A DNA stretch of 30,693 nt from a virus. Shown in pieces: positions 7,518-19,706 of this stretch. Both the position numbers and the translations under genes were made by a program. The notes under the pieces were generated by a model. The model was not told the origin of the DNA, ran no database searches, and saw nothing but the letters and a program-made list of their open reading frames with translations. The DNA lies in IMG/VR virus record IMGVR_UViG_3300044293_000189, positions 1 to 30,693 of that record, one strand, 5' to 3'. The stretch's first letter is position 1; the number at the start of each line of letters is the position of its first letter.

Positions 7518-8363
7518 TTAGAACTCCTCAATAACTGAAATAAGGTTCTTTAGCTTATTATTGATCATATAGGGGAGAACCTTTGACCTATCTGATACAA
7601 CGGTAGGTTTTGCATATTCATCCAAAATACGAGTTTCGATTTCTGCCGGAATGTTGACAAAATCGATCAGAGTGCTGTTTCGTTCCCAGTTTCGGAGAAG
7701 TTTATCATCCGTAAAGTTTGGAACAACCCTTAGCATTTCATCCATTTTCTTTGAAGTAAGTCTATTTTGACGCTTTTCATCATTAATGAAAACATCATCA
7801 TCTGAGAGAATATTAGGAACTCCATCTCCAGAATCCCCACGCATAATATGTTCCGCAAGGAACATTCGTGGATACTTACATTCCAAAAACTCCTTACGCA
7901 TTGTGCTGTACTGCTTTACGCCAGGATAAATTTGCAGTTGTTGAAAGTCTTTGTCGTTTGAAACAATAACAATCTTCTCATGGTTTGCATAACTCTTTAC
8001 AAGAACAGCGATGATATCATCTGCTTCGCAGTTTTCTACACGCATATTCTTGTATGGAAAATTGTCACGAACCTCATCCCGAACAATGTTCAGAATTCTA
8101 TAAATCTCATCCCAATTATACTCTGACTCGGCGTGACTCTTTGAGCGGTTTGCCTTGTATTGAGAAAAGAACTGCTTTCTCCAAGAATTAGAGGAGTCTT
8201 GACAAATAACAAGTTCACCATACTCTTCATTAAAGAGACGACGAATCATACGATAGGAATTTAGTACTTGATGCCGAATTAGATCTTCGGAAACATTTGG
8301 ATCATTCTTAAGACCAACAAAAATACTGGCAAGAACGATCTGATTATTATCTAGCAAAATCAT
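7518..8363 (-). CDS. rnh: RNase H / 5'-3' exonuclease of the FEN1 family
   Basis: 281 residues (T4 RNase H: about 305). It contains the acidic metal-binding motifs of the phage FEN1/RNase H group: LLDNNQ with D5, NCEADDIIAVL (EADD 113-116), VSNDKDFQQL (135-143) and the helix-hairpin motif GDSGDGVPN (176-184). The enzyme removes RNA primers and adjacent DNA from lagging-strand fragments. Its ATG lies only 6 bases after the -10 element of a sigma70-like promoter (8370-8398), with no ribosome site in between, so the mRNA may be leaderless. It is the first gene of the operon continuing into gp45, gp44 and gp62. Confidence 0.93.
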   Translation of the reverse strand: MILLDNNQIVLASIFVGLKNDPNVSEDLIRHQVLNSYRMIRRLFNEEYGELVICQDSSNSWRKQFFSQYKANRSKSHAESEYNWDEIYRILNIVRDEVRDNFPYKNMRVENCEADDIIAVLVKSYANHEKIVIVSNDKDFQQLQIYPGVKQYSTMRKEFLECKYPRMFLAEHIMRGDSGDGVPNILSDDDVFINDEKRQNRLTSKKMDEMLRVVPNFTDDKLLRNWERNSTLIDFVNIPAEIETRILDEYAKPTVVSDRSKVLPYMINNKLKNLISVIEEF

Positions 8364-8369
8364 GTAAAT

Positions 8370-8398
8370 AGTATATCACTTAAAAATTAACAAGTCAA
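8370..8398 (-). promoter_or_regulatory. Sigma70-like promoter of the rnh-45-44-62 operon
   Basis: On the minus strand: -35 TTGACT (8393-8398), 17-bp spacer, -10 TATACT (8370-8375) within GTGATATACTATT, then 6 bases to the rnh ATG. The 13-mer GTGATATACTATT is identical at the uvsY promoter. A start 7 bases after the -10 would coincide with the A of ATG. Confidence 0.82.
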
Positions 8399-8709
8399 GT
8401 AGCAACCCACTGAAGACCGTCAGTATCACAAACTCTTGTAAAAAGAATACCTGTGGTTGTATTAAACCAACGATCACCTTCAAAAGATATTTCTGGTTCT
8501 GTTTCTTGACAATAAAAAGTAGAAGTAGATGTTATTTTTTCCCAACCACTATTTTTAAAAATTGGAGATTTACCCGTTATAGTTCTGGTTGCAATATAAT
8601 TAAGACCATTAAAAACTACAGTATCGCCTTTTTTATACTGCAAAAGACGACCATCTGGATCATATTTTCTGTACTCACCTGCAAATTTTAGTTTCTCAGC
8701 TTCATTCAT
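8395..8709 (-). CDS. Small protein with CBM5/12-like and phage fibre-type motifs
   Basis: 104 residues from the ATG at 8709, which overlaps the upstream stop by 4 bases (ATGA). Residues 25-58 (YKKGDTVVFNGLNYIA, then KSPIFKNSGWEKI) look like a carbohydrate-binding module of the CBM5/12 type: YxxGDxVxxNGxxYxA with a terminal W. Residues 76-103 (FEGDRWFNTTTGILFTRV, DGLQWV) match a short motif, GDxWxxxxTGxLxxxxxDGxxQWV, often repeated in tail-fibre and structural proteins of marine phages. The N-terminal helix (NEAEKLKFAGEYRKYDPDG) is unassigned. A virion or glycan-binding role is suggested by motif, yet the gene lies at the end of a recombination operon. Confidence 0.55.
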   Translation of the reverse strand: MNEAEKLKFAGEYRKYDPDGRLLQYKKGDTVVFNGLNYIATRTITGKSPIFKNSGWEKITSTSTFYCQETEPEISFEGDRWFNTTTGILFTRVCDTDGLQWVAT

Positions 8710-9782
8710 TTTTGGATACTCAGAAACAAGCAATTTTCATTTACTCTAGCCTTTGGAACAAACTCTTTAGTATTCATGGAAGAAAAAAGATTTTCTCCAT
8801 ATTTAAAGTTTATAGATTGAAGATTATTCTTGGACATAAATTTTTCAAATCCTCTAATCTTTTTACCTACAGACTTTTCCTCATCAATATTTAGAAGAGT
8901 TGTGCCCTTGAAGGACAAGGTTTCATTTGCTTTTGCTCGGTAAATAATAAGTGCTTTTATTTTAGTATTGAGCACCAACACAGATGAACACCCTACAATC
9001 TGTTCGGGTTTAATAGAAACAATAGAATTATATTTTTCCTGATATTTAACCTTGTTTGCAATCTGTTGTGCGGTCTTTACCTTCTTCTTTCTAGGTTTAC
9101 GGTTTTGACGCTTCTCTACAACTTTAGACTGATAAAAGTTAATAAGTTCTTCCTGCACCTCAATATAAGATAGAAGTTGTGATTTGGTAAAGTAAGAATA
9201 CCCTTCTACCAACTGTTCGTCCTTCTTATCTCTTGCTAGGTATAGTTCATTCAGTTTTTCTTGTACAAAGTAAATAACCTCAGAGTAGTAAGGAGCACTG
9301 ATTTCAAATCTCTGACAAGACTTCTTTACATCAATATCTTTCTTTTTCTTTCTCTGAATAAGAGTAGAACATTCATCAACAAAAATATTGATGTCTACCA
9401 GATGCTTACACAAAGTATCTGCAAACCTCTTGGTTCTCTCTTCAATTGACTTTTGTTTTGTCTTCTTATAGTCGTTGTACTTGGTTTCTAGTCTAGAAAG
9501 AAATTCATCAAACACTTTTCTTTCTGCTGAGGGAATAGAAATATTTCGACTGAGCATTCTTGCCCAAATACCATAGGGACTATACTCTTTGGTCTTACCA
9601 TGAGAATAGATGTTTGGATCTTTCTTTTCCTTAGAGACATACTCAATCACCCACTTCTTGTGATCTTTGGATGTACTAATACCCCTATAGGTGTTATATG
9701 CCGTATAAACCTCGGACTCGTACTGCTTTTCGTCTACTGAAGGAGTAGGAGTCGGTTCTTGAAATGTTTTCTTCTTTGCCAT
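8706..9782 (-). CDS. Conserved T4-like phage protein of unknown function, lysine-rich
   Basis: 358 residues. It is very basic, with predicted long helices from about 90 to 235, a Lys/Arg-rich linker near 225-240 (RQNRKPRKKKVKTAQQ) and a distinct C-terminal domain: SIKPEQIVGCSSVLVLNTK, then ALIIYRA, LSFKGTTLLNIDEEKS. From memory, this C-terminal pattern recurs in unannotated proteins of marine T4-like phages near gp46/gp45; a database search is needed to confirm this. There is no catalytic motif, signal peptide or membrane segment. The basic middle suggests nucleic-acid binding. It overlaps the upstream methyltransferase stop by one base (TAATG) and the following gene by four, so it is part of that operon. 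Function is unknown. Confidence 0.7.
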   Translation of the reverse strand: MAKKKTFQEPTPTPSVDEKQYESEVYTAYNTYRGISTSKDHKKWVIEYVSKEKKDPNIYSHGKTKEYSPYGIWARMLSRNISIPSAERKVFDEFLSRLETKYNDYKKTKQKSIEERTKRFADTLCKHLVDINIFVDECSTLIQRKKKKDIDVKKSCQRFEISAPYYSEVIYFVQEKLNELYLARDKKDEQLVEGYSYFTKSQLLSYIEVQEELINFYQSKVVEKRQNRKPRKKKVKTAQQIANKVKYQEKYNSIVSIKPEQIVGCSSVLVLNTKIKALIIYRAKANETLSFKGTTLLNIDEEKSVGKKIRGFEKFMSKNNLQSINFKYGENLFSSMNTKEFVPKARVNENCLFLSIQK

Positions 9783-11338
9783 TACTCTTTATAGAATACA
9801 AAAACTGGTTCGTATTTCAAGTATGTACCTTGAACTTTGCAAAAGTTTTTACACTTTGGTTTGCCATCTTTATCTAATCTATTCTGACCGGGCATTCCTT
9901 CCATCGCCATCTTCATTGTTTCGACATATTTCATACCTAGACTTTCAAGAATATCTCTTGAATCTTTTTCTAGTGGCAGATATTTTCCTGCCACCTGAAT
10001 ATCAGCAATATTCCAAAGAAGATATCGGTCATTCTTCAACCACTTTACACAAGTCTCTAATGTTGGTCTTAAGAATCCATCTCTCCAAGATTCGTAATTA
10101 GAAAACTTCTTATAAGATTGTGTTGGGTCATTTGAATATGCTTCTCTATTAAAATATGGTGGAGAAGTAAAAACAAGATCGACCTTTCGATCTATATGCT
10201 TTCCTATATCTTCTGATCCATACTGATGCATTTCAAAAGTATGGGTGTCACTGAAGAAAGAGTTTCCTCTATAGGTTTTGGTATTATAAAAGTTTGCTAG
10301 GTTGTGGTACTTTGACGAATCCTCGCCAAACCAGTTTTCGCTGTTTGGATCAGTTCCGATATAGTGTACAGGAACACGATCAGACATAGACATGCAACCA
10401 AGAAGGCGGCCGCCCCACCCACTAGAAGGATCGTAAATATTAAGTATGCTATCTCCTGCAATGTGAGAAGTATATTTTTCATAAAGGAACTTTGCAGTTA
10501 GAGGTGGGAAGTTTACCGCCGGTTGAATGTACCCAATTCTAAACGAAGGAAAGCACTTAGGAAAAACCTTCTGTCCCTTTTCATAGACACGAATATGGAA
10601 AACATCGTCACTCTCGATGCTATTTATATCAAAGGTGGAATAATGACGATATGAAAGTTTGCATTTCCATTTATTAAGTAAATCTTTATCAAGTGATAGT
10701 ATCTTGGACTGCTCAAGTTGAAAGTAACCAGTGTTCAATCCACTCTTCTTTTTGTTTTTCTCAAGTATAAAATTATATCCACTGAAGATCTCAGGATTAG
10801 TGAAGTATGCCTGCATCCATTCGTCACCGGATGGAATAGAAATAACTGAATACTTTGCGTCGTTCTTGATTGCAGAAAGAGCAAAGTTATAAAAGGAATC
10901 CCTACGAATATGTCGTCTAGCACCTTTTATCATTCGCGGTAAATACTTGTCATCTGCAAATAAATCGTAGATAGAATACCCAGTATCATTTTCACTATAG
11001 TTGATTCTGGTTTTATACATGTTGGAGAAGAACTGATCTGCTTCAGATCCAACTCGACACTTATTAATTATTACGTCTTTTGTATTAGTAAGTTCATCGC
11101 TAAATTCAAATAGATGAACCGGATAACTTACCATCTTATTGAACTCATCAATAATTTCGTCTTCGTTTTTACCTGTTCGTGGGGGACAACCGTGGGTATC
11201 CCAAACATTGAGAATTACCTTACGCATCTGAACTACCCAATGCTCAAATTCCAATTCTGACATAGAAACAATGTCCTCGTAAAGAACATTGATTGGATCG
11301 TTTAAAACATAACTATTTCGTTCGTAAAATGGTTTCAT
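9782..11338 (-). CDS. DNA methyltransferase, SPPY type (N4-cytosine or N6-adenine), long N-terminal region
   Basis: 518 residues from the ATG at 11338, which overlaps the PLP gene stop by four bases (ATGA); a longer frame to 11395 would overlap it by 61 bases. The SAM-binding motif I is YDPSSGWGGRLLG (about 302-314). The catalytic motif IV is TSPPYF (391-396), followed by the conserved W and DGFLRP region and a final FVFYKE. SPPY favours N4-cytosine, but N6-adenine cannot be excluded. The motif order I then IV fits the beta-type arrangement. The first 290 residues are unassigned and could hold target recognition. No restriction nuclease is adjacent, so it more likely protects or marks phage DNA. 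It lies with a PLP-fold enzyme and a conserved unknown. Confidence 0.82.
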   Translation of the reverse strand: MKPFYERNSYVLNDPINVLYEDIVSMSELEFEHWVVQMRKVILNVWDTHGCPPRTGKNEDEIIDEFNKMVSYPVHLFEFSDELTNTKDVIINKCRVGSEADQFFSNMYKTRINYSENDTGYSIYDLFADDKYLPRMIKGARRHIRRDSFYNFALSAIKNDAKYSVISIPSGDEWMQAYFTNPEIFSGYNFILEKNKKKSGLNTGYFQLEQSKILSLDKDLLNKWKCKLSYRHYSTFDINSIESDDVFHIRVYEKGQKVFPKCFPSFRIGYIQPAVNFPPLTAKFLYEKYTSHIAGDSILNIYDPSSGWGGRLLGCMSMSDRVPVHYIGTDPNSENWFGEDSSKYHNLANFYNTKTYRGNSFFSDTHTFEMHQYGSEDIGKHIDRKVDLVFTSPPYFNREAYSNDPTQSYKKFSNYESWRDGFLRPTLETCVKWLKNDRYLLWNIADIQVAGKYLPLEKDSRDILESLGMKYVETMKMAMEGMPGQNRLDKDGKPKCKNFCKVQGTYLKYEPVFVFYKE

Positions 11339-12066
11339 GCACCAACATTCCAAAATAGAGCACCAGGTTTTGCGTGTTGTTTCATAAACGCCCATGCTTT
11401 GGCGTCATATGTGGGGGCGGAAGGAAAGGGTGGAGCATCTCCCGCTGCGACGGGTTGAAAGAAAGGAATGGCACACTTGAACATCGATGCTCGCCCTAGC
11501 TCCTTCGCCCCCATTTTATGACCTACAGAAACACAATTAAACTCAGCATCAGGCCATGCAGCCTGAAGACCTCTGGTTAAGGTTCCACTTGAACCTACTG
11601 TCCAGACTTCTTTCGGTTGAACAGGAAGTTGTCGAGCCAAATCCCGTATGGCGTCCAATACCTCTGGACAATCAAACCCAATAGGAAACAACTTACGAGT
11701 AAAAGGATCTGCGTTGACATAATCTCTTGCTCTTTTCTGAGTTACAGATAACATACCGTTCTCTACCCAGTTCATTGTAGCACCGTATGATATTGCTTTC
11801 AACTGGTAAGGATGAAGATTCTCTATCTTTCTTTTTGCCATGAATAAGATACATTTCTTATTAAAATGATTACAGACTCTAGCTAAAGATATCTGAGCAT
11901 ATCCAGTTGCAGGAGAAGATCCATATACAAATTCATCTCCAACAAAATCCCTAACTAAAGGTTGTATAAACCTAGTCTTCGATCCACCATCAATTAAATC
12001 ATCACGGACTACTAAAAATCCGTCATGTTCCATTATTACAGGCGGTGGGTTTAATTCATCGGTCAT
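11335..12066 (-). CDS. PLP-dependent fold type II enzyme (ACC deaminase/desulfhydrase-like)
   Basis: 243 residues. Features of the tryptophan-synthase-beta (fold type II) group are DGGSKTRFIQPL with K30 as the probable Schiff-base lysine, YGSSPATGYAQISLA (48-62; the substrate-binding N-terminal helix region) and the phosphate-binding loop VGSSGTLTRGL (157-167). The closest resemblance is to 1-aminocyclopropane-carboxylate deaminase and D-cysteine desulfhydrase, but those are about 330 residues, so this is a compact form. The reaction is unknown. Placement next to a DNA methyltransferase raises the possibility of base hypermodification, as PLP enzymes act in some phage thymidine-modification pathways. 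The 3' third is much more GC-rich than its flanks. It overlaps gp46 and the methyltransferase by 4 bases each. Confidence 0.75.
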   Translation of the reverse strand: MTDELNPPPVIMEHDGFLVVRDDLIDGGSKTRFIQPLVRDFVGDEFVYGSSPATGYAQISLARVCNHFNKKCILFMAKRKIENLHPYQLKAISYGATMNWVENGMLSVTQKRARDYVNADPFTRKLFPIGFDCPEVLDAIRDLARQLPVQPKEVWTVGSSGTLTRGLQAAWPDAEFNCVSVGHKMGAKELGRASMFKCAIPFFQPVAAGDAPPFPSAPTYDAKAWAFMKQHAKPGALFWNVGA

Positions 12067-13778
12067 AGCATTCTACTGAAGTTATTCTTCTTTTCAAAAG
12101 ATATTGTGGTCTGGAACTTATCGACCAATTGATCTGACTTATGACTGATCACATAAATGTTTGACTTATCACTTACCGCATTGAGAAGTTTCATTAATTC
12201 TTCCATACCAAGACTGTCAAGAGAAGAATCAAAAACTTCATCTAAAATTAAAAGATTGCAGTTTACACTATTTTTTGCTCTGGCAATTTCTCTCCATGCC
12301 AGCAAAAGTGCCAGATCTATTCTCATCTTTTCACCTTCGCTAAAGTTCATGTAACTCATTTCATCCCGATGACGACTCTTAATCGTCTCATTAAAGTCCT
12401 CATCAAGAATAAACTGAACAAAGAAGTCCATAGAAGTCAAGAACTTGTTGATGTACTTATTCATGAAAGGAAGATAATACTTAATGATCTTTGCCTTTAC
12501 ACCAGTATCTTTTAGGAGATCAGAAGCATATTGATAATAATGCTCTTCTGACTTCATTTCTATTTTCTTTGATTCCAATTCACCTAGAACTGTTTCCATT
12601 TCTTGGAGTTTACCCTTTTCGGAATTAATTTGATCATAAGAATTAGATGCTTTTTTAAGATCTTCTACTAGAGATTTCAAGAACTTCTTACCATTGTCAA
12701 TGGATGTTTTCTTTTGAAGAATTTGAAGATTCTTGTCTTGTACTAAGGCAGCAATATCATTAATTTCTTTAATCCTAGAATCACATTCTTGAATACTATA
12801 TTCTAGATCTGAAATTGCTTTTTCATATTCATTCTTCTTTTTATTTCTCTTCTGTAGTTCCTTTTCTTTTACATCATTGGTGATGGACTGACAGCATGAA
12901 GGACATGTTTCATTATCAGTAAAAAAAGCGATGTCTTTTATTAATGTGGAAAGATTTACACCAATTTTAGTCTTTAGTGTTTTAACTTCTGACTGTTTCT
13001 TAGAAACTTTATCCTTATCAGAAATGCTAGAAGTAATCTCATTCATATAAACTTCCAGTTCGGTTATTTCTTTTAAGAGTTCGGATATCTCAGATTCAAT
13101 AGTTTGAATTTTTTGATTTGTATTTTCTATATCCTTGTTGCTTTTACTTTCAAGATTAGAAATCAAATCTTTTCTAGACTGAATTTTTTCTTTTTGAATT
13201 TCAATAGAAGTAGAAACTTCCTTCAAAGACTCCTTGAGTGCAGACATCTTGCCTTTAAGAACCATATTCATTGAACTAAACACATTGATGTCTAAAATAT
13301 TTTCTATGACTGCTCTACGATCAGCAGCGTTTAACTGCATAAAAGGAACAAATGATGAACTACCAAGAATCACCACTTGAGTGAATGTCTTGTAATTCAT
13401 CTTGATAATTTGTTCTTCAAGAACTGTCTGATAATCGACACTCTTTGCATCTTGATTTAAAAGTTCACCATTTCTGTGAATCTCAAATATCTTTGGATTT
13501 AATCCTCTACGAACAATATAACTTTCATTTCCTTTAGTAAACTCAATCTCTACCAAACAATTCTTTGAATTAATAGAATTTGCTAGTTGTGGAATGTTTA
13601 TCTTTCGAAATGGTTTTCCAAAAAGAGCAAAGGTAATTGAATCTAAAAAAGCAAAGGACTTACCACTCCCATTGCTTCCGCAGATGAGAGTGGTATTATT
13701 TTTGTCCAATACTAGTTCTGTAAATGTATTACCAAACGATCCAAAATTTTTAAACCGAACTTTCTGGAACCTTATCAT
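12063..13778 (-). CDS. 46: Recombination nuclease ATPase subunit (gp46, Rad50-like)
   Basis: 571 residues (T4 gp46: 560). The order is typical of SMC/Rad50 proteins: Walker A GSNGSGKS (34-41), Q-loop region near 134, a long coiled coil (about 180-430) interrupted by the zinc hook CPSCC (292-296), the ABC signature FSEGEK (479-484) and Walker B LLILDEVFD (509-517). With gp47 it resects DNA ends for recombination-dependent replication and degrades host DNA. The hook has an extra cysteine (CPSC followed by C). Its first 29 bases overlap the SET-domain gene that separates it from gp47. Confidence 0.95.
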   Translation of the reverse strand: MIRFQKVRFKNFGSFGNTFTELVLDKNNTTLICGSNGSGKSFAFLDSITFALFGKPFRKINIPQLANSINSKNCLVEIEFTKGNESYIVRRGLNPKIFEIHRNGELLNQDAKSVDYQTVLEEQIIKMNYKTFTQVVILGSSSFVPFMQLNAADRRAVIENILDINVFSSMNMVLKGKMSALKESLKEVSTSIEIQKEKIQSRKDLISNLESKSNKDIENTNQKIQTIESEISELLKEITELEVYMNEITSSISDKDKVSKKQSEVKTLKTKIGVNLSTLIKDIAFFTDNETCPSCCQSITNDVKEKELQKRNKKKNEYEKAISDLEYSIQECDSRIKEINDIAALVQDKNLQILQKKTSIDNGKKFLKSLVEDLKKASNSYDQINSEKGKLQEMETVLGELESKKIEMKSEEHYYQYASDLLKDTGVKAKIIKYYLPFMNKYINKFLTSMDFFVQFILDEDFNETIKSRHRDEMSYMNFSEGEKMRIDLALLLAWREIARAKNSVNCNLLILDEVFDSSLDSLGMEELMKLLNAVSDKSNIYVISHKSDQLVDKFQTTISFEKKNNFSRML

Positions 13779-14613
13779 TTGTTTGTTGTGGTGTTTCTTC
13801 GTTTAGAATCTTATCGGGTACAACCATTGATCTAAATGGTACTTTCTTTTCTGGTGTTTCAGTTGGAGGCGGTTGCTTCTTTGCTCCACAACCACATCCT
13901 CCCTTTTTAGCATTAGGATTTTGCTTTGTAAATGAATCTGGGGTCGCAGGAACTGCATAACCAGAAAGATTATTTGCTTGACCTGTAGGAATATTTGCTA
14001 ATCCATCAGGTACACCTTTTGAGTGGGTAATTTTACCTTCATCTTTTATTCTTTGTGCATATCCAGTACCATAGTACCATGTGATTTCAGTACCCTTGGG
14101 AATATCAGTCAATGCATAAAATGTAAATACCTTCATGAAAGTATCTTGAACGACATATGCATTTGGTTTTTCTGAATGGTTGTATATCATACCATGACCA
14201 AGCATCATTGACATAGTTGGACCGTGTACTCTATCGACTTCACTGTTTGCAACCCATGTCATGCAATATCTACCAAGAACCCAGTCTTTATTATTTGGGA
14301 AAGTAGTATCAAGAAGAACTGCTTGACATTCTTCTATAATTTCTCCTGCCTTTATATCTTCCTTTGCAAATACTCCATAACCGTGAACTCCTGACTTACC
14401 TGCATATGTTCTATTGATAAATCTTTCTTTTCTAGCAAAAGTATTTGTATTATAATCAAACATTCCTTGATAATAACTATGAGAAGTTCTAACAGGAATT
14501 CCTTCCTTGTTAAGCACTGGTTTCATGTCATTTGAATTTGACTTTAAATTTTCAGGACTAAAAACTGGTTGTCTATTTTCACCTTGGCTTGGTGGTGTTT
14601 CATTTGGTGTCAT
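13750..14613 (-). CDS. SET-domain protein (putative protein lysine methyltransferase)
   Basis: 287 residues. The SET fold covers about 66-185: GVHGYGVFAKEDIKAGEII (75-93), a strand with RYCMTWV, then GHGMIYNHSEKPNA (139-152; the NHxxxPN element that binds SAM and forms the pseudoknot) and TDIPKGTEITWYYG (169-182; the terminal GxExxxxYG motif with its aromatic residue). A Cys-rich CGC (240-242) after the domain resembles a minimal post-SET element. Both ends are Pro/Asn-rich and probably disordered. Such enzymes transfer methyl groups from SAM to protein lysines; the target here is unknown. The gene sits between gp47 and gp46 with overlaps at both ends (ATGA at the gp47 side), and has a GGAGAG ribosome site. 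Confidence 0.85.
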   Translation of the reverse strand: MTPNETPPSQGENRQPVFSPENLKSNSNDMKPVLNKEGIPVRTSHSYYQGMFDYNTNTFARKERFINRTYAGKSGVHGYGVFAKEDIKAGEIIEECQAVLLDTTFPNNKDWVLGRYCMTWVANSEVDRVHGPTMSMMLGHGMIYNHSEKPNAYVVQDTFMKVFTFYALTDIPKGTEITWYYGTGYAQRIKDEGKITHSKGVPDGLANIPTGQANNLSGYAVPATPDSFTKQNPNAKKGGCGCGAKKQPPPTETPEKKVPFRSMVVPDKILNEETPQQTNDKVPESSV

Positions 14614-15665
14614 AATGTTAAACTCTCCATATATAAGTCTTTAATAATCACTTTTAATTTTGATTTATCTTGAACCTGATCAAGATTATCTATCTCTTTA
14701 TTTATAAGAGACATTGTATCTTCTGTTATGTCAATGTCAATAGGATTTTGTTTATCATGATACTCCTCAACAATAGTAAGTTGTTGAGGATTCAAAGAAT
14801 AAAGAGTATCAATAAATTTATCAAATCCAAATGGTTTTAATTTATTTGTAACTATTACTTTAATAAATCCATTTTTATATTGAGCAAAATCTGTTTTTAA
14901 AATATTCTCCAATCCTTCTTCCGAAGAATCATCATATTTAATCAGATGAAATATTTTATTTGGATTTTTTATAAACTGTAAATCTCTAGTTTCAGTATCT
15001 AAAACATGAAATCCTTTTGGACTATTCATGTCTCCAAAATTTAATTCATATTGAGTTCCAAGATAATGAATATTTCCATTATTTTGTTTTAAATGAAAGT
15101 GACCGGACATCACAAGTTCAAATCTATCAAAGATTGCCTTATTTAATCCCATAGGGTGAATAACACCATTCATAACCTGAAACCCACTAATTTCAAAATG
15201 TCCACCAATAATAGGACACTTACACTTTCTTATAAATGATAAACATTCTGCTTCATTATCCCTAGCAACCCAAGGAATAATTCCAATACAAAGGCCATCA
15301 TAATCTATTGCAGTAGGTGTTTCTACAATATTAATATACTCTGACTCATTGAAAAATAATTCATTAATTGAATTTAAACTATTGGTATTCTTATAATAAG
15401 TATCATGGTTTCCAATAGTGATATAAGTCTTAATCTGATTATCAATTAAAGGTTTAAAGAAACGCTTTCGTACTTGGGAAAGAGTATTAAAATTTACAAA
15501 CTTTCTACGATCTAAAAGATCACCAAGATGAATAACATTCTTAATGTTATTTTCTTTTAGATATGGAAAAAATATTTTATCAAAAAATTCAAGAGATTGA
15601 TCCAAGAAAAAAGGAGAGTCATTTCTGACTCCAAAGTGAGTATCATTTATAATGGCAATTTTCAT
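14610..15665 (-). CDS. 47: Recombination nuclease subunit (gp47, Mre11-like)
   Basis: 351 residues (T4 gp47: 339). A calcineurin-type metallophosphoesterase with NDTHFG (D8, H10), HLGDLLDRR (GD at 48-49), IGNHDT (GNHD 85-88), GGHFE and SGHFHLKQ as the metal-binding motifs, so all residues expected of an active Mre11-family nuclease are present. It pairs with gp46. The C-terminal 100 residues are the less conserved capping and gp46-binding part. It starts with an ATGA overlap on gp55. Confidence 0.95.
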   Translation of the reverse strand: MKIAIINDTHFGVRNDSPFFLDQSLEFFDKIFFPYLKENNIKNVIHLGDLLDRRKFVNFNTLSQVRKRFFKPLIDNQIKTYITIGNHDTYYKNTNSLNSINELFFNESEYINIVETPTAIDYDGLCIGIIPWVARDNEAECLSFIRKCKCPIIGGHFEISGFQVMNGVIHPMGLNKAIFDRFELVMSGHFHLKQNNGNIHYLGTQYELNFGDMNSPKGFHVLDTETRDLQFIKNPNKIFHLIKYDDSSEEGLENILKTDFAQYKNGFIKVIVTNKLKPFGFDKFIDTLYSLNPQQLTIVEEYHDKQNPIDIDITEDTMSLINKEIDNLDQVQDKSKLKVIIKDLYMESLTL

Positions 15666-16297
15666 TCAAATAACCTATTTGACTTTTTTTTACTTTTAAC
15701 TTTCTTCTTGCGTTTCTTTCTTTTCTTTGGTTCTAAATTTTTAATGTCTTGTTCACTTAAGAAAAAAGTTTTCTGGAGAAATTCAGTGTAAGTTGAAGAT
15801 CCTTGGTTTTCCTTCAACCAGTCTACAAATTTACCATCTGGATCGTTTATCTGCAAGGACTTGTATTTAATATACGCTTGTTTTTTTTCTTTTTCTATCC
15901 TTCTGAGAAAAGCGTAATATATTATTTGAGTAAAGTAAGAAAAAGGATTCTTTGATTTTTTGGGATCGAAGTTGTGTGCATAAAGGAGACAGTTTTCAAT
16001 ACCATCTCCAACCATATCTTCACAGAATGGGTAATTAATAAAATTTGGTCTATAGGAAAGATGTTCTGCAATCTTCAAGAAACATTCGGCAATATAATCA
16101 GTTACTGGTGGACGTTTTTCGTCGCAGTCCTCTGCTTCTTTTACTAACTTTTTCCATTCAGTCATTTCTTTACAAAAACGCTGATTATCAACATAATGTT
16201 TTAAAGATTTAGTAGTTTCTTCTACTTCTTCTACTTCTTCTACTTCTATTTCTGGTTCTAACTCTTCTTCGACCTTCGGTTTCTTTTTCTTTCCCAT
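15662..16297 (-). CDS. 55: Late-promoter sigma factor (gp55)
   Basis: 211 residues (T4 gp55: 185). The central part (YRPNFINYPFCEDMVGDGIE, then NPFSYFTQIIYYAFLRRI, then AYIKYKSLQI) is the sigma region-2-like core that recognises the TATAAATA late box as part of host RNA polymerase. An acidic N-terminal extension contains repeated EVEEVEE, and the C-terminus is a dense basic patch (KKRKKRKKKVKSKKKS) before NRLFE, the probable clamp-binding tail. The ATG lies 9 bases after a sigma70-like -10 and has no ribosome site in the predicted leader. It heads the operon gp55-47-SET-46-PLP-methyltransferase. Confidence 0.92.
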   Translation of the reverse strand: MGKKKKPKVEEELEPEIEVEEVEEVEETTKSLKHYVDNQRFCKEMTEWKKLVKEAEDCDEKRPPVTDYIAECFLKIAEHLSYRPNFINYPFCEDMVGDGIENCLLYAHNFDPKKSKNPFSYFTQIIYYAFLRRIEKEKKQAYIKYKSLQINDPDGKFVDWLKENQGSSTYTEFLQKTFFLSEQDIKNLEPKKRKKRKKKVKSKKKSNRLFE

Positions 16298-16306
16298 AGT
16301 GCTACT

Positions 16307-16334
16307 AGTATACCTTTCATTATATAAAAATCAA
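16307..16334 (-). promoter_or_regulatory. Sigma70-like promoter of the gp55-47-46 operon
   Basis: On the minus strand: -35 TTGATT (16329-16334), 16-bp spacer, -10 TATACT (16307-16312), then 9 bases to the gp55 ATG. It stands directly behind a probable terminator of the preceding operon. A second AT-rich stretch (TATATAAT) inside the spacer is an alternative -10. Confidence 0.75.
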
Positions 16335-16342
16335 GAATCTTC

Positions 16343-16372
16343 TAAAAAATTGGTTGACGAACCTTGACAACC
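16343..16372 (-). terminator. Probable intrinsic terminator after the uvsY-uvsW-Sm operon
   Basis: Minus strand GGTTGTC, 7-base loop, GTCAACC (arms 16366-16372 and 16352-16358) with one internal T/T mismatch, followed by AATTTTTT. The hairpin is modest but lies exactly between the end of one operon and the gp55 promoter. The 146-base gap 16298-16443 also holds a weak hairpin near 16425-16444 without a T-run; nothing else is seen there. Confidence 0.55.
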
Positions 16373-16443
16373 TCATTACAATGTCTGTGTAGGCTATGGT
16401 AAAGGGTAATAGTAACTATACTCTAAGAAGCTCTAAGGCCTCT

Positions 16444-17103
16444 TCAAGCGTAATCGTCAGAGTTGGGATCTGGATTCCAGTCTGAAAACTTGTTTCCAAA
16501 ATCTTTTCTTTCCTTTTCATCACCAGTAAATTTATTCTTCTTCTTGACTTCTTTGATCATTTTTTGAATGTCGCGGGGATCAAGAATACCAGAAGTGATT
16601 AGGTTCATAATCATTTCGGGTGGGAAAACCATGTTCATATAAATCATTTGTTTTCCATCCATCTTTTCCATTTCAATTTCTGTTTCTTCATCCATAAATG
16701 GAATTCCTTTTTCATCTAGTCCTCCCCCACCTGGACCAAACTTTTCAAAGAGTTCATTGAACATATCTTCCATTTCTTTTTCTGCATTTGCTCTATCTTC
16801 CTGTGAAACTACTTCAGTAGATATAGCACTTAAATTACTAAGTTGATCCAAATACATGGTTCTACATTTTTGCGATGGTTCAACTAAACTAACAACATGA
16901 CTACGAGGTATTGTTATAGATTTAGTATCACTATTATATAACCAATCTTTTAGAGTAGTCATTTCAAATGGTCGACCCATTTGATTCATTAAAGTTGTAG
17001 AACGAAATAACATTGGATTATCAAGAGTATATTTGCCCTTTGATTCCGTTAGAATTGAAATAACCTCTTCACCGCTTTTTAGTTTTAGTATTTTGCAATT
17101 CAT
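16444..17103 (-). CDS. Sm-like (LSm) domain protein with acidic C-terminal extension
   Basis: 219 residues. The N-terminus (KILKLKSGEEVISILTES, KYTLDNPMLF, then SITIPRSHVVSLVEPS around residues 62-77) has the pattern of a two-part Sm fold: Sm1 with a Gly-Glu turn and Sm2 ending in a hydrophobic strand. Sm-like proteins of probable cyanophage origin have been reported structurally. The remaining 140 residues are unusual: a Glu/Met-rich helix (EKEMEDMFNELFEKFG), a PGGGG linker, another acidic part and a basic helix (DPRDIQKMIKEVKKKNKF). Sm rings normally bind RNA, so a role in phage or host RNA handling is possible. It follows uvsW with an ATGA overlap and has a strong AAAGGAG site. Confidence 0.65.
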   Translation of the reverse strand: MNCKILKLKSGEEVISILTESKGKYTLDNPMLFRSTTLMNQMGRPFEMTTLKDWLYNSDTKSITIPRSHVVSLVEPSQKCRTMYLDQLSNLSAISTEVVSQEDRANAEKEMEDMFNELFEKFGPGGGGLDEKGIPFMDEETEIEMEKMDGKQMIYMNMVFPPEMIMNLITSGILDPRDIQKMIKEVKKKNKFTGDEKERKDFGNKFSDWNPDPNSDDYA

Positions 17104-18587
17104 GGTGTCTCCTTTAGGCGTATCTTTGTAACATCATATGTAAATCTCTCATTACTATATAGGTTGATCCGTTCATCTAGATGACGGAGAGCATGGTTGC
17201 GATGTTTCTTCCAACGAAGATCATCACCTATATCATATATTGTAACCTTATCCTTTGTTTCACTTTTACGAAGTCCTCTGCCAATTGATTGTAGCACACG
17301 AATTACAGATTTTGATGGCGAAGTAAATACAATATTGTGAATATTTTTGATGTTTATACCAGTACTACAAGTGCCATATGAAGCAACTAGAATACTTTCT
17401 TTTTGTTTGTTCACAATTTGTCGAATACTTTCACGATCATCTGCTTGTGTTTTTCCGTAGATCAAATAGCATGGTTTGTTGCAATTTGATTTGATACGAT
17501 CAAACATTGGCAATCCGTGCTTCTCTACAAAATTAAATAGGACTAGAGTATTACCTTTTAGATTACAACATAGATTTTCTATGAATTTATTTCTCTCTTC
17601 GTTTGCAACTAACCATTGAACCTCTTCAATGTATTTTGCTCTTTTAATTTCTTCTACTTTATTCTCTGGATATTCAAGAAGAAGACAATTGATTTTTAGA
17701 TTAGAAAGAAAATTTTGATCAATCAAGTCTTTAGTTGTAGTGACACGAAATACAGGACCAAACAATCCTTCTACTACTAATTTATGAACATGAGTGCCAT
17801 CTAAAGTGCCAGTTGTACCAACTCTAAATTCACAACCTTTCATTTTACTCATTAGGGTTGTAAGTGATTTTGCTTTAAACAAGTGACACTCATCTCCAAA
17901 GACGCATAAAACATCTTTGAAGTATTCTTCCTTCATCTTGTAAATACTTTGCCAAGTAGAGATGATTACTCTACGAGGTGTTTCTTTTGGTTGACCTGAA
18001 TAGACTGCATGACAATTACGGATAAATCCATCTTTATTTGAATAATCGTGAAAGTCATTTGCCATTTGTCCGACAAGACCAGTTGTGGGAACAACAATCA
18101 AAATCTTCTTGTGTGGTGGTAATTTCTCCATGAGATACCTAACACAAAGGTAGATGATTAGTGATTTACCACTACCTGTTGGAGAAATTAAAAGTGCTCT
18201 CTGTTTTAACAATGAGTGCTTTACTGCACTCTTTTGATATTCGTGTGGGGTTATTTCTTTTCCCTCACTGTAGCATTTGAATCTAGTTAAAAATTCATCG
18301 ACAGATTGTTCGTCAAACTTTAAATTTAAATTTTCAAGAGGTTCATATTCAAACTTATAACCTCGTTCTTCTGCAAACTTAAACAAGTAATCAAGTAGTC
18401 CAGAGTAAAGAGTTTGAGTTAGAGTATTGAAAAGACGAATCTTTCCATCCCAAAGTCTATTTTTATATGCTGGTGTAAATTGGTAATTAGGAACCGAGAA
18501 GGTGAAGAAGGAACTTATTTCTTTTGCAATTCCCTTTTCACAATCGACTTTTAAATTTACTGCATCTACTTGTTTTACTTTTATCAT
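17100..18587 (-). CDS. uvsW: UvsW superfamily 2 DNA/RNA helicase
   Basis: 495 residues from the ATG at 18587, overlapping the uvsY stop by four bases (a TTG at 18611 would extend it). SF2 motifs in order: Q-like YQKSAV, motif I SPTGSGKS (ends at 142), motif II GDECH (DECH about 232-235), motif III TGT, motif V ATYGT-like ASYGTCSTGINI and motif VI QSIGRGLRKS. The first 95 residues form the small N-terminal domain typical of UvsW. In T4 the enzyme unwinds R-loops and branch-migrates recombination intermediates, switching origin-dependent to recombination-dependent replication. It is cotranscribed with the recombination mediator gene uvsY. Confidence 0.95.
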   Translation of the reverse strand: MIKVKQVDAVNLKVDCEKGIAKEISSFFTFSVPNYQFTPAYKNRLWDGKIRLFNTLTQTLYSGLLDYLFKFAEERGYKFEYEPLENLNLKFDEQSVDEFLTRFKCYSEGKEITPHEYQKSAVKHSLLKQRALLISPTGSGKSLIIYLCVRYLMEKLPPHKKILIVVPTTGLVGQMANDFHDYSNKDGFIRNCHAVYSGQPKETPRRVIISTWQSIYKMKEEYFKDVLCVFGDECHLFKAKSLTTLMSKMKGCEFRVGTTGTLDGTHVHKLVVEGLFGPVFRVTTTKDLIDQNFLSNLKINCLLLEYPENKVEEIKRAKYIEEVQWLVANEERNKFIENLCCNLKGNTLVLFNFVEKHGLPMFDRIKSNCNKPCYLIYGKTQADDRESIRQIVNKQKESILVASYGTCSTGINIKNIHNIVFTSPSKSVIRVLQSIGRGLRKSETKDKVTIYDIGDDLRWKKHRNHALRHLDERINLYSNERFTYDVTKIRLKETP

Positions 18588-19024
18588 TGTCCTTGTGTAA
18601 ACTTGATCCAATCAATTGCAGAGCGAATATTCCAGTTTCTGTTTGAAATGACCTTCACTAGATTCTCTAGGTAATTTACTTTCTCTTTTTGTAGTTCAAG
18701 TTTATTTGTAATTTCAATCACCTGTGTATCGCTATCGATGAACCTATCCAAATCTTGACGAAGAATTGCTAAATCAAATGGTTCCCAACCAAGATCCTTA
18801 AGTTGTTCATCTGACATTTTTCCAGAGTAATACAACCACTTGTTTCTTTTTATTACATTGAGATCCGATTCTAGTTTTTTTAGAATCAGTTTTTCATCCA
18901 ACATAATAGAAAGATACTTATTGTGAATTTGTGGTGTGCGAAGACTTTCTGTGTCCAAAGACGAACCATCAATCTTCATATCCTGCTCGGCCATTGTACG
19001 AATTTCACTTAGTTTAATAGTCAT
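18584..19024 (-). CDS. uvsY: Recombination mediator (UvsY)
   Basis: 146 residues (T4 UvsY: 137). Conserved parts are LRTPQIHNKYLSIMLDEK, NKWLYYSGKMSDEQLKDLGW, EPFDLAILRQDLDRFIDSD and the C-terminal ISNRNWNIRSAIDWIKFTQG. UvsY helps the UvsX recombinase load onto gp32-covered single-stranded DNA. The ATG is 6 bases behind the -10 of a sigma70-like promoter with no ribosome site between them, so translation is probably from a leaderless mRNA. It is the first gene of a short operon, uvsY-uvsW-Sm-like. Confidence 0.93.
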   Translation of the reverse strand: MTIKLSEIRTMAEQDMKIDGSSLDTESLRTPQIHNKYLSIMLDEKLILKKLESDLNVIKRNKWLYYSGKMSDEQLKDLGWEPFDLAILRQDLDRFIDSDTQVIEITNKLELQKEKVNYLENLVKVISNRNWNIRSAIDWIKFTQGQ

Positions 19025-19030
19025 ACTAAT

Positions 19031-19058
19031 AGTATATCACAAAACCGGCAAAAATCAA
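19031..19058 (-). promoter_or_regulatory. Sigma70-like promoter of the uvsY operon
   Basis: On the minus strand: -35 TTGATT (19053-19058), 16-bp spacer, -10 TATACT (19031-19036) within GTGATATACTATT, then 6 bases to the uvsY ATG. It overlaps the last codons of the upstream tail gene and shares a 13-base identical core with the rnh promoter. Confidence 0.8.
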
Positions 19059-19646: not shown

Positions 19647-19679
19647 TAAAAAAACAGGGAGGGGTTTTGCCCCTCCCTG
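19647..19679 (-). terminator. Strong intrinsic terminator after gp23
   Basis: A perfect 10-bp GC-rich stem (CAGGGAGGGG, 5-base loop, CCCCTCCCTG; arms 19655-19664 and 19670-19679) is followed on the minus strand by TTTTTTTA. It lies 28 bases past the major capsid stop and would end the late structural transcript. Confidence 0.93.
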
Positions 19680-19706
19680 CTACTGAACCTTATTCAGTCT
19701 TTGTTA

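Follow-up and report, generated by a model that had tools for sequence, protein, structure and literature searches.

The rnh and uvsY genes of the uncultured T4-like phage analyzed here are very probably expressed from leaderless mRNAs, which is the best reading of their sequence context, and the gp55 transcript would be near-leaderless with a leader of approximately 3 nt. Host sigma-70-type promoters with the −10 element placed 6–7 nt before the start codon would direct RNA polymerase to start at the A of AUG, giving a leaderless mRNA for the first gene of the replication/recombination operons. Ribosomes would enter at the 5′-terminal AUG without a ribosome site (SD), and the operon genes downstream of the leaderless head would depend on SD sites or coupling; expression is presumed to fall in the early/middle phase. 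The predicted 5′ ends of the rnh and uvsY transcripts and the presumed mode of ribosome entry build on directly observed features, i.e., the motif, its position and conservation, the dichotomy between upstream regions with and without SD, and the start-site context.

The window and its promoter-like sites

The DNA analyzed, called here the window, is the whole of an IMG/VR virus record and is 30,693 bases long. Its minus strand carries the T4-type genes gp23, tail tube, uvsY, uvsW, gp55, gp47, gp46, rnh, gp45, gp44, gp62, and regA, and with gp23, gp44, gp55, and UvsY as replication and capsid genes of the T4 type, the record belongs among the T4-like phages. The identities of RNase H (PF02739/PF09293), UvsY (PF11056), and the late sigma factor gp55 (phrog_234) hold. 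No near DNA relative of the window was found among the named phages. The photosystem gene psbA was absent from eight related records, these being fragments and psbA not being carried by every cyanophage. The host search with rnh and the SpoU-type methylase detected no relative in genome contigs. A strong terminator-like hairpin of 12 pairs followed by a T run is located on the minus strand between the gp23 and tail-tube genes (19653–19681).

The TTGAYT-N16/17-TATACT motif has three matches in the window and no others, each just before a gene start and on the strand of its gene (minus), exactly where the initial annotation had placed them. The rnh site (8370–8398) consists of the −35 TTGACT (8398–8393), a 17 nt spacer, and the extended −10 TGATATACT; the latter ends at 8370, leaving 6 nt to the ATG at 8363. 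In the uvsY site (19031–19058), TTGATT (19058–19053) is separated by 16 nt from the extended −10 TGATATACT, which ends at 19031 and is followed after 6 nt by the ATG at 19024. The gp55 site (16307–16334) combines TTGATT, a 16 nt spacer, and TATACT, with 9 nt left to the ATG at 16297. The 13-mer said to be common to the rnh and uvsY sites, GTGATATACTATT, is exact at both. These three promoter-like sites are not due to chance; dinucleotide shuffles of the window gave on average 0.06 matches to the strict motif, and none of 100 shuffles reached three.

With TTGACA-like and TATAAT-like hexamers 16–18 nt apart, the sites have the form of sigma-70-type promoters. They had been described as strong promoters: the sites are real, but "strong" is generous for 9–10 matches to the 12 consensus bases. 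A loose sigma-70 scan of the region revealed no excess (52 sites vs. 48.6 in shuffles), so the information sits in the strict motif and its position. The MotA box of T4 middle promoters, TGCTT(T/C)A near −30, had no match within 75 nt upstream of rnh, uvsY, or gp55, the −35 being of the TTGA type instead. A weaker fourth site, TTGAAA-N16-TATTCT on the minus strand (9793–9820), leaves 10 nt to the ATG of phrog_11903 (358 aa); judging from its sequence, it is probably a coding sequence of the upstream gene and not a promoter. On the plus strand, a site at 15397 with 7 nt to the ATG opens only a 14-codon frame and was taken as chance.

Start codons and leaders of rnh and uvsY

The rnh gene (7518–8363, minus strand, 281 aa), encoding RNase H / 5′–3′ exonuclease, heads the operon rnh–ORF–gp45–gp44–gp62, and uvsY (18584–19024, minus strand, 146 aa) heads the operon uvsY–uvsW–ORF. 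Directly upstream of rnh lie a gene without a family match (8395–8733) and the phrog_11903 gene of unassigned function (8706–9782), the latter having a promoter 6 nt before its own start in the distant relatives L158, L159, and G007.

Comparison of the sequences indicates that the start codons of rnh and uvsY are secure, since an in-frame TGA precedes both ATGs by five codons, within the extended −10, so that RNase H and UvsY cannot start earlier, and since RNase H homology runs from residue 1, with the MILLDNNQ start kept in distant relatives. The UvsY homology spans residues 1–5 onward. At its codons 11 and 16, uvsY has further in-frame ATGs that might serve translation of an mRNA that begins at or next to the first AUG, but these internal starts have no good SD, and the conservation of both N-termini, together with ATG being nearly always the codon found 6–7 nt after the −10 (N6/7), makes translation from an internal codon very improbable.

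In none of the three genes is an SD present between the predicted transcript start and the ATG, as had been claimed. The accompanying claim that most other genes have a ribosome site did not hold: an SD was recognizable by inspection in about half of them (17/34). A weak GTGA occurs 9 nt before the ATGs of uvsY and rnh, inside the extended −10 and upstream of any predicted transcript. This GTGA and the upstream genes ending approximately 30 nt off speak for read-through from the upstream late genes, with a start by coupling or at the weak SD and the promoter-like motif being of minor importance. Such an explanation is unlikely, however, as many relatives (L021, L022, L023, L132, L136, and L142) keep the −10 spacing without GTGA, and the promoter is conserved while the flanks have diverged.

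A leaderless state also agrees with the start-site context. The usual context of sigma-70 starts is a pyrimidine before a purine. The base just before the ATG was a pyrimidine in 45 of the 49 N6/7 starts vs. 209 of 400 (52%) in the background (p 1e-8), and A was found there in 2/49 vs. 153/400. Transcription from the A of AUG would fit the pyrimidine at −1, and the pyrimidine–A context combined with the sigma-70 start preference (taken from general sigma-70 knowledge, the phage–host pair being uncultured) gives independent, if indirect, support for a start at this base. Among the non-redundant N6/7 start codons there were 49 ATG, two TTG, and no GTG, and the absence of GTG is as expected if transcription starts at the A of AUG. 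The prevalence of AUG over GUG and UUG matches a trait reported for leaderless translation in E. coli (PMC9031893). The −10 is found 6–7 nt before the start in rnh and uvsY; gp55, with its 9 nt, qualifies as near-leaderless only.

The promoter–ATG layout, which the initial annotation had proposed to look for in relatives, recurs in many of them. For rnh, uvsY, and gp55, 170 loci were fetched, and upstream regions less than 85% alike were kept as non-redundant. All 11 rnh promoters found in this set are located 6–7 nt before the ATG. The uvsY promoters fall into two groups: 16 of the 25 found have the −10 at 6–7 nt, and eight have it at 17–21 nt, in all eight cases with an SD such as GGAGA. The remaining one lies at 0 nt (L073, in which a second ATG is present at 6 nt), and none of the 25 was found at 8–16 nt; some relatives, L029 and L043 among them, have a uvsY promoter too weak for the consensus rule used. 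In shuffled upstream regions, any promoter at 5–9 nt appeared in less than 1%. The commonest leadered form of uvsY, TATAAT-N6-GGAGA-TTTATT-ATG, differs from the leaderless form by about 11 added nt. The tree of UvsY requires the leaderless label to change six times, at least five of these changes being forced by well-supported branches; unresolved rows were given a third label, hence the number of switches is bounded only roughly. The leaderless L061 and L067 adjoin the SD-leadered L060 and L072. Read from the upstream sequences, UvsY lineages moved repeatedly between the leaderless and SD states.

gp55, its micro-ORFs, and possible purposes of short leaders

The gp55 gene for the late sigma factor (15662–16297, minus strand, 211 aa) heads the operon gp55–gp47–ORF–gp46. 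In the window, the pyrimidine–A step falls at position 7 of the 9 nt spacing, and the predicted leader is the 3-nt ACU. True N6/7 starts of gp55 were seen in L024, L040, L041, L062, and L071, and SD leaders in other lineages. In G001 (near 59,860), G010, G015, L098, G002, and L101, the N6/7 ATG opens a frame of 4–5 codons before gp55. The stop codons of these micro-ORFs (MGKL, MGNL, MVVII, and MVVMI) overlap the gp55 start as ATGA, and the frame is kept despite sequence changes. They resemble the 5′-terminal uAUG/uORF mRNAs of E. coli, in which the actual gene is preceded by an AUG at the 5′ terminus (PMC4965119); here the stop overlaps the start of gp55, and the arrangement is common to several phage lineages.

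The reading of the gp55 mRNA as near-leaderless or coupled is only partly supported, and the case is weaker than that of rnh and uvsY because of the N9 spacing and the many gp55 relatives with SD leaders or a 5′-terminal micro-ORF. Leaderless mRNAs had initially been predicted for all three genes. The prediction is well backed for rnh and uvsY by the conserved spacing, the SD/no-SD dichotomy, the pyrimidine–A context, and the recurrence of this layout at further replication genes, and is weakened for gp55.

The micro-ORFs suggest that the 5′-terminal AUG is a selected feature. Genome compaction offers a different view of its purpose, leaving the leaderless state as such undisputed: a promoter squeezed into a 30-nt gap would make the loss of the leader a by-product without regulatory meaning. 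The gaps to the upstream genes are indeed only 30 nt at uvsY (behind the tail-tube gene) and 31 nt at rnh, and in both cases the stop TGA of the upstream gene falls inside the −35. Compaction covers these gaps but not that of gp55, in which 146 nt are available and the promoter is nevertheless close to the ATG. Moreover, gp55 relatives keep the ATG at N6/7 even when it opens only a micro-ORF, and in uvsY lineages about 11 additional nt suffice for an SD leader. We regard compaction as possible, though rather doubtful. Escape from RegA and use of intact 70S ribosomes, the reasons put forward in the initial annotation, are speculative. It is also no more than a tentative proposal that the 5′-terminal AUG would be a selected ribosome-recruiting signal of the early/middle program, kept even for a micro-ORF handing the ribosome to gp55 via ATGA, so that the replication switch of a lytic phage would operate through SD-independent initiation.

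Layout in related records and in named phages

At the genome scale, promoter-like sites were defined as TTGA-N18/20-TATAMT, and the layout was counted where the next ATG followed after precisely 6 or 7 nt. The window together with six related records contained 69 such sites, 28 of them with this layout, compared to 36 of 1036 (3.5%) control TATAMT sequences without TTGA. When sites more than 80% alike were collapsed, the nine clade records retained 22 of 56 sites at 6–7 nt, whereas only three of the 106 distinct ones fell there in Mosig, HTVC008M, Melnitz, Syn9, P-SSM4, and T4 (Fisher 3e-9), the statistics resting on consensus matches and the related records not being fully independent. The 156.7-kb record G001 had 8/24 sites at 6–7 nt (p 1e-5). 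Some N6/7 sites are false on sequence grounds, e.g., the phrog_11903 site in close relatives, which was rejected as the conserved coding end of the upstream gene and is lost in relatives with other codons; of the 22 sites left after collapsing, it makes up one or two by inspection and leaves the result unchanged. The N6 sites of the phrog_11903 family in L158, L159, and G007 were retained.

Besides the operon heads described above, the N6/7 layout precedes the genes of gp43, dUTPase, SpoU-type methylase, exonuclease, and HNH nuclease. Promoters of the same genes in the named phages are more distant, usually with an SD: 26 nt for gp43 in Melnitz, 28 and 31 nt for the exonuclease gene in Mosig and HTVC008M, respectively, and 21 and 23 nt for gp55 in P-SSM4 and Syn9. 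The T4-like marine phages Melnitz, for which sigma-70-type early promoters were reported (PMC9004378), HTVC008M, Mosig, Syn9, and P-SSM4 share homologous genes and the gene order around uvsY and gp55 with the window, but their promoter-to-start distances are mostly 10–99 nt, and an SD is often present.

Promoters of the same sigma-70 form precede the tRNA and tmRNA genes of G001. This record encodes a one-piece tmRNA (L178:14357–14749) with the predicted tag ANNNNYMAIAA, as well as tRNA genes. In L180 near 4701 (G002:24701), a leader of ~70 nt with the hairpin GTGGTGGGGAGTTCCCACC separates a promoter from an SD-led gene of ~300 aa; similar leaders occur in G004 and G005, and the hairpin had no confident Rfam match.

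In bacterial leaderless genes, e.g., those of Mycobacterium tuberculosis, the start codon follows the −10 at a short and fixed distance. Those genes are cellular, whereas here the layout belongs to a phage lineage with an SD at about half of its genes. The usual example of a leaderless phage mRNA is lambda cI. Its mRNA begins at AUG without an SD and is translated from the 5′-terminal AUG (PMC9031893). In lambda, a temperate phage, this concerns one maintenance repressor, unlike the several replication/recombination operon heads of the T4-like phages described here. In the literature searched, the coverage of which leaves out most subscription journals, leaderless early genes were not found to be described for T4-like phages. 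Leaderless mRNA is already known; its lineage-wide use in uncultured T4-like water phages would be new.

The TTGA-N18/20-TATAMT-N6/7-ATG pattern provides a simple sequence rule for calling starts in uncultured phages. If the leaderless reading is true, the transcripts for polymerase, RNase H, dUTPase, and UvsY would start at AUG in one T4-like lineage, and the repeated switches between the leaderless form and a short SD-bearing leader, the promoter being the same, would constitute a natural series bearing on why leaderless initiation is chosen.
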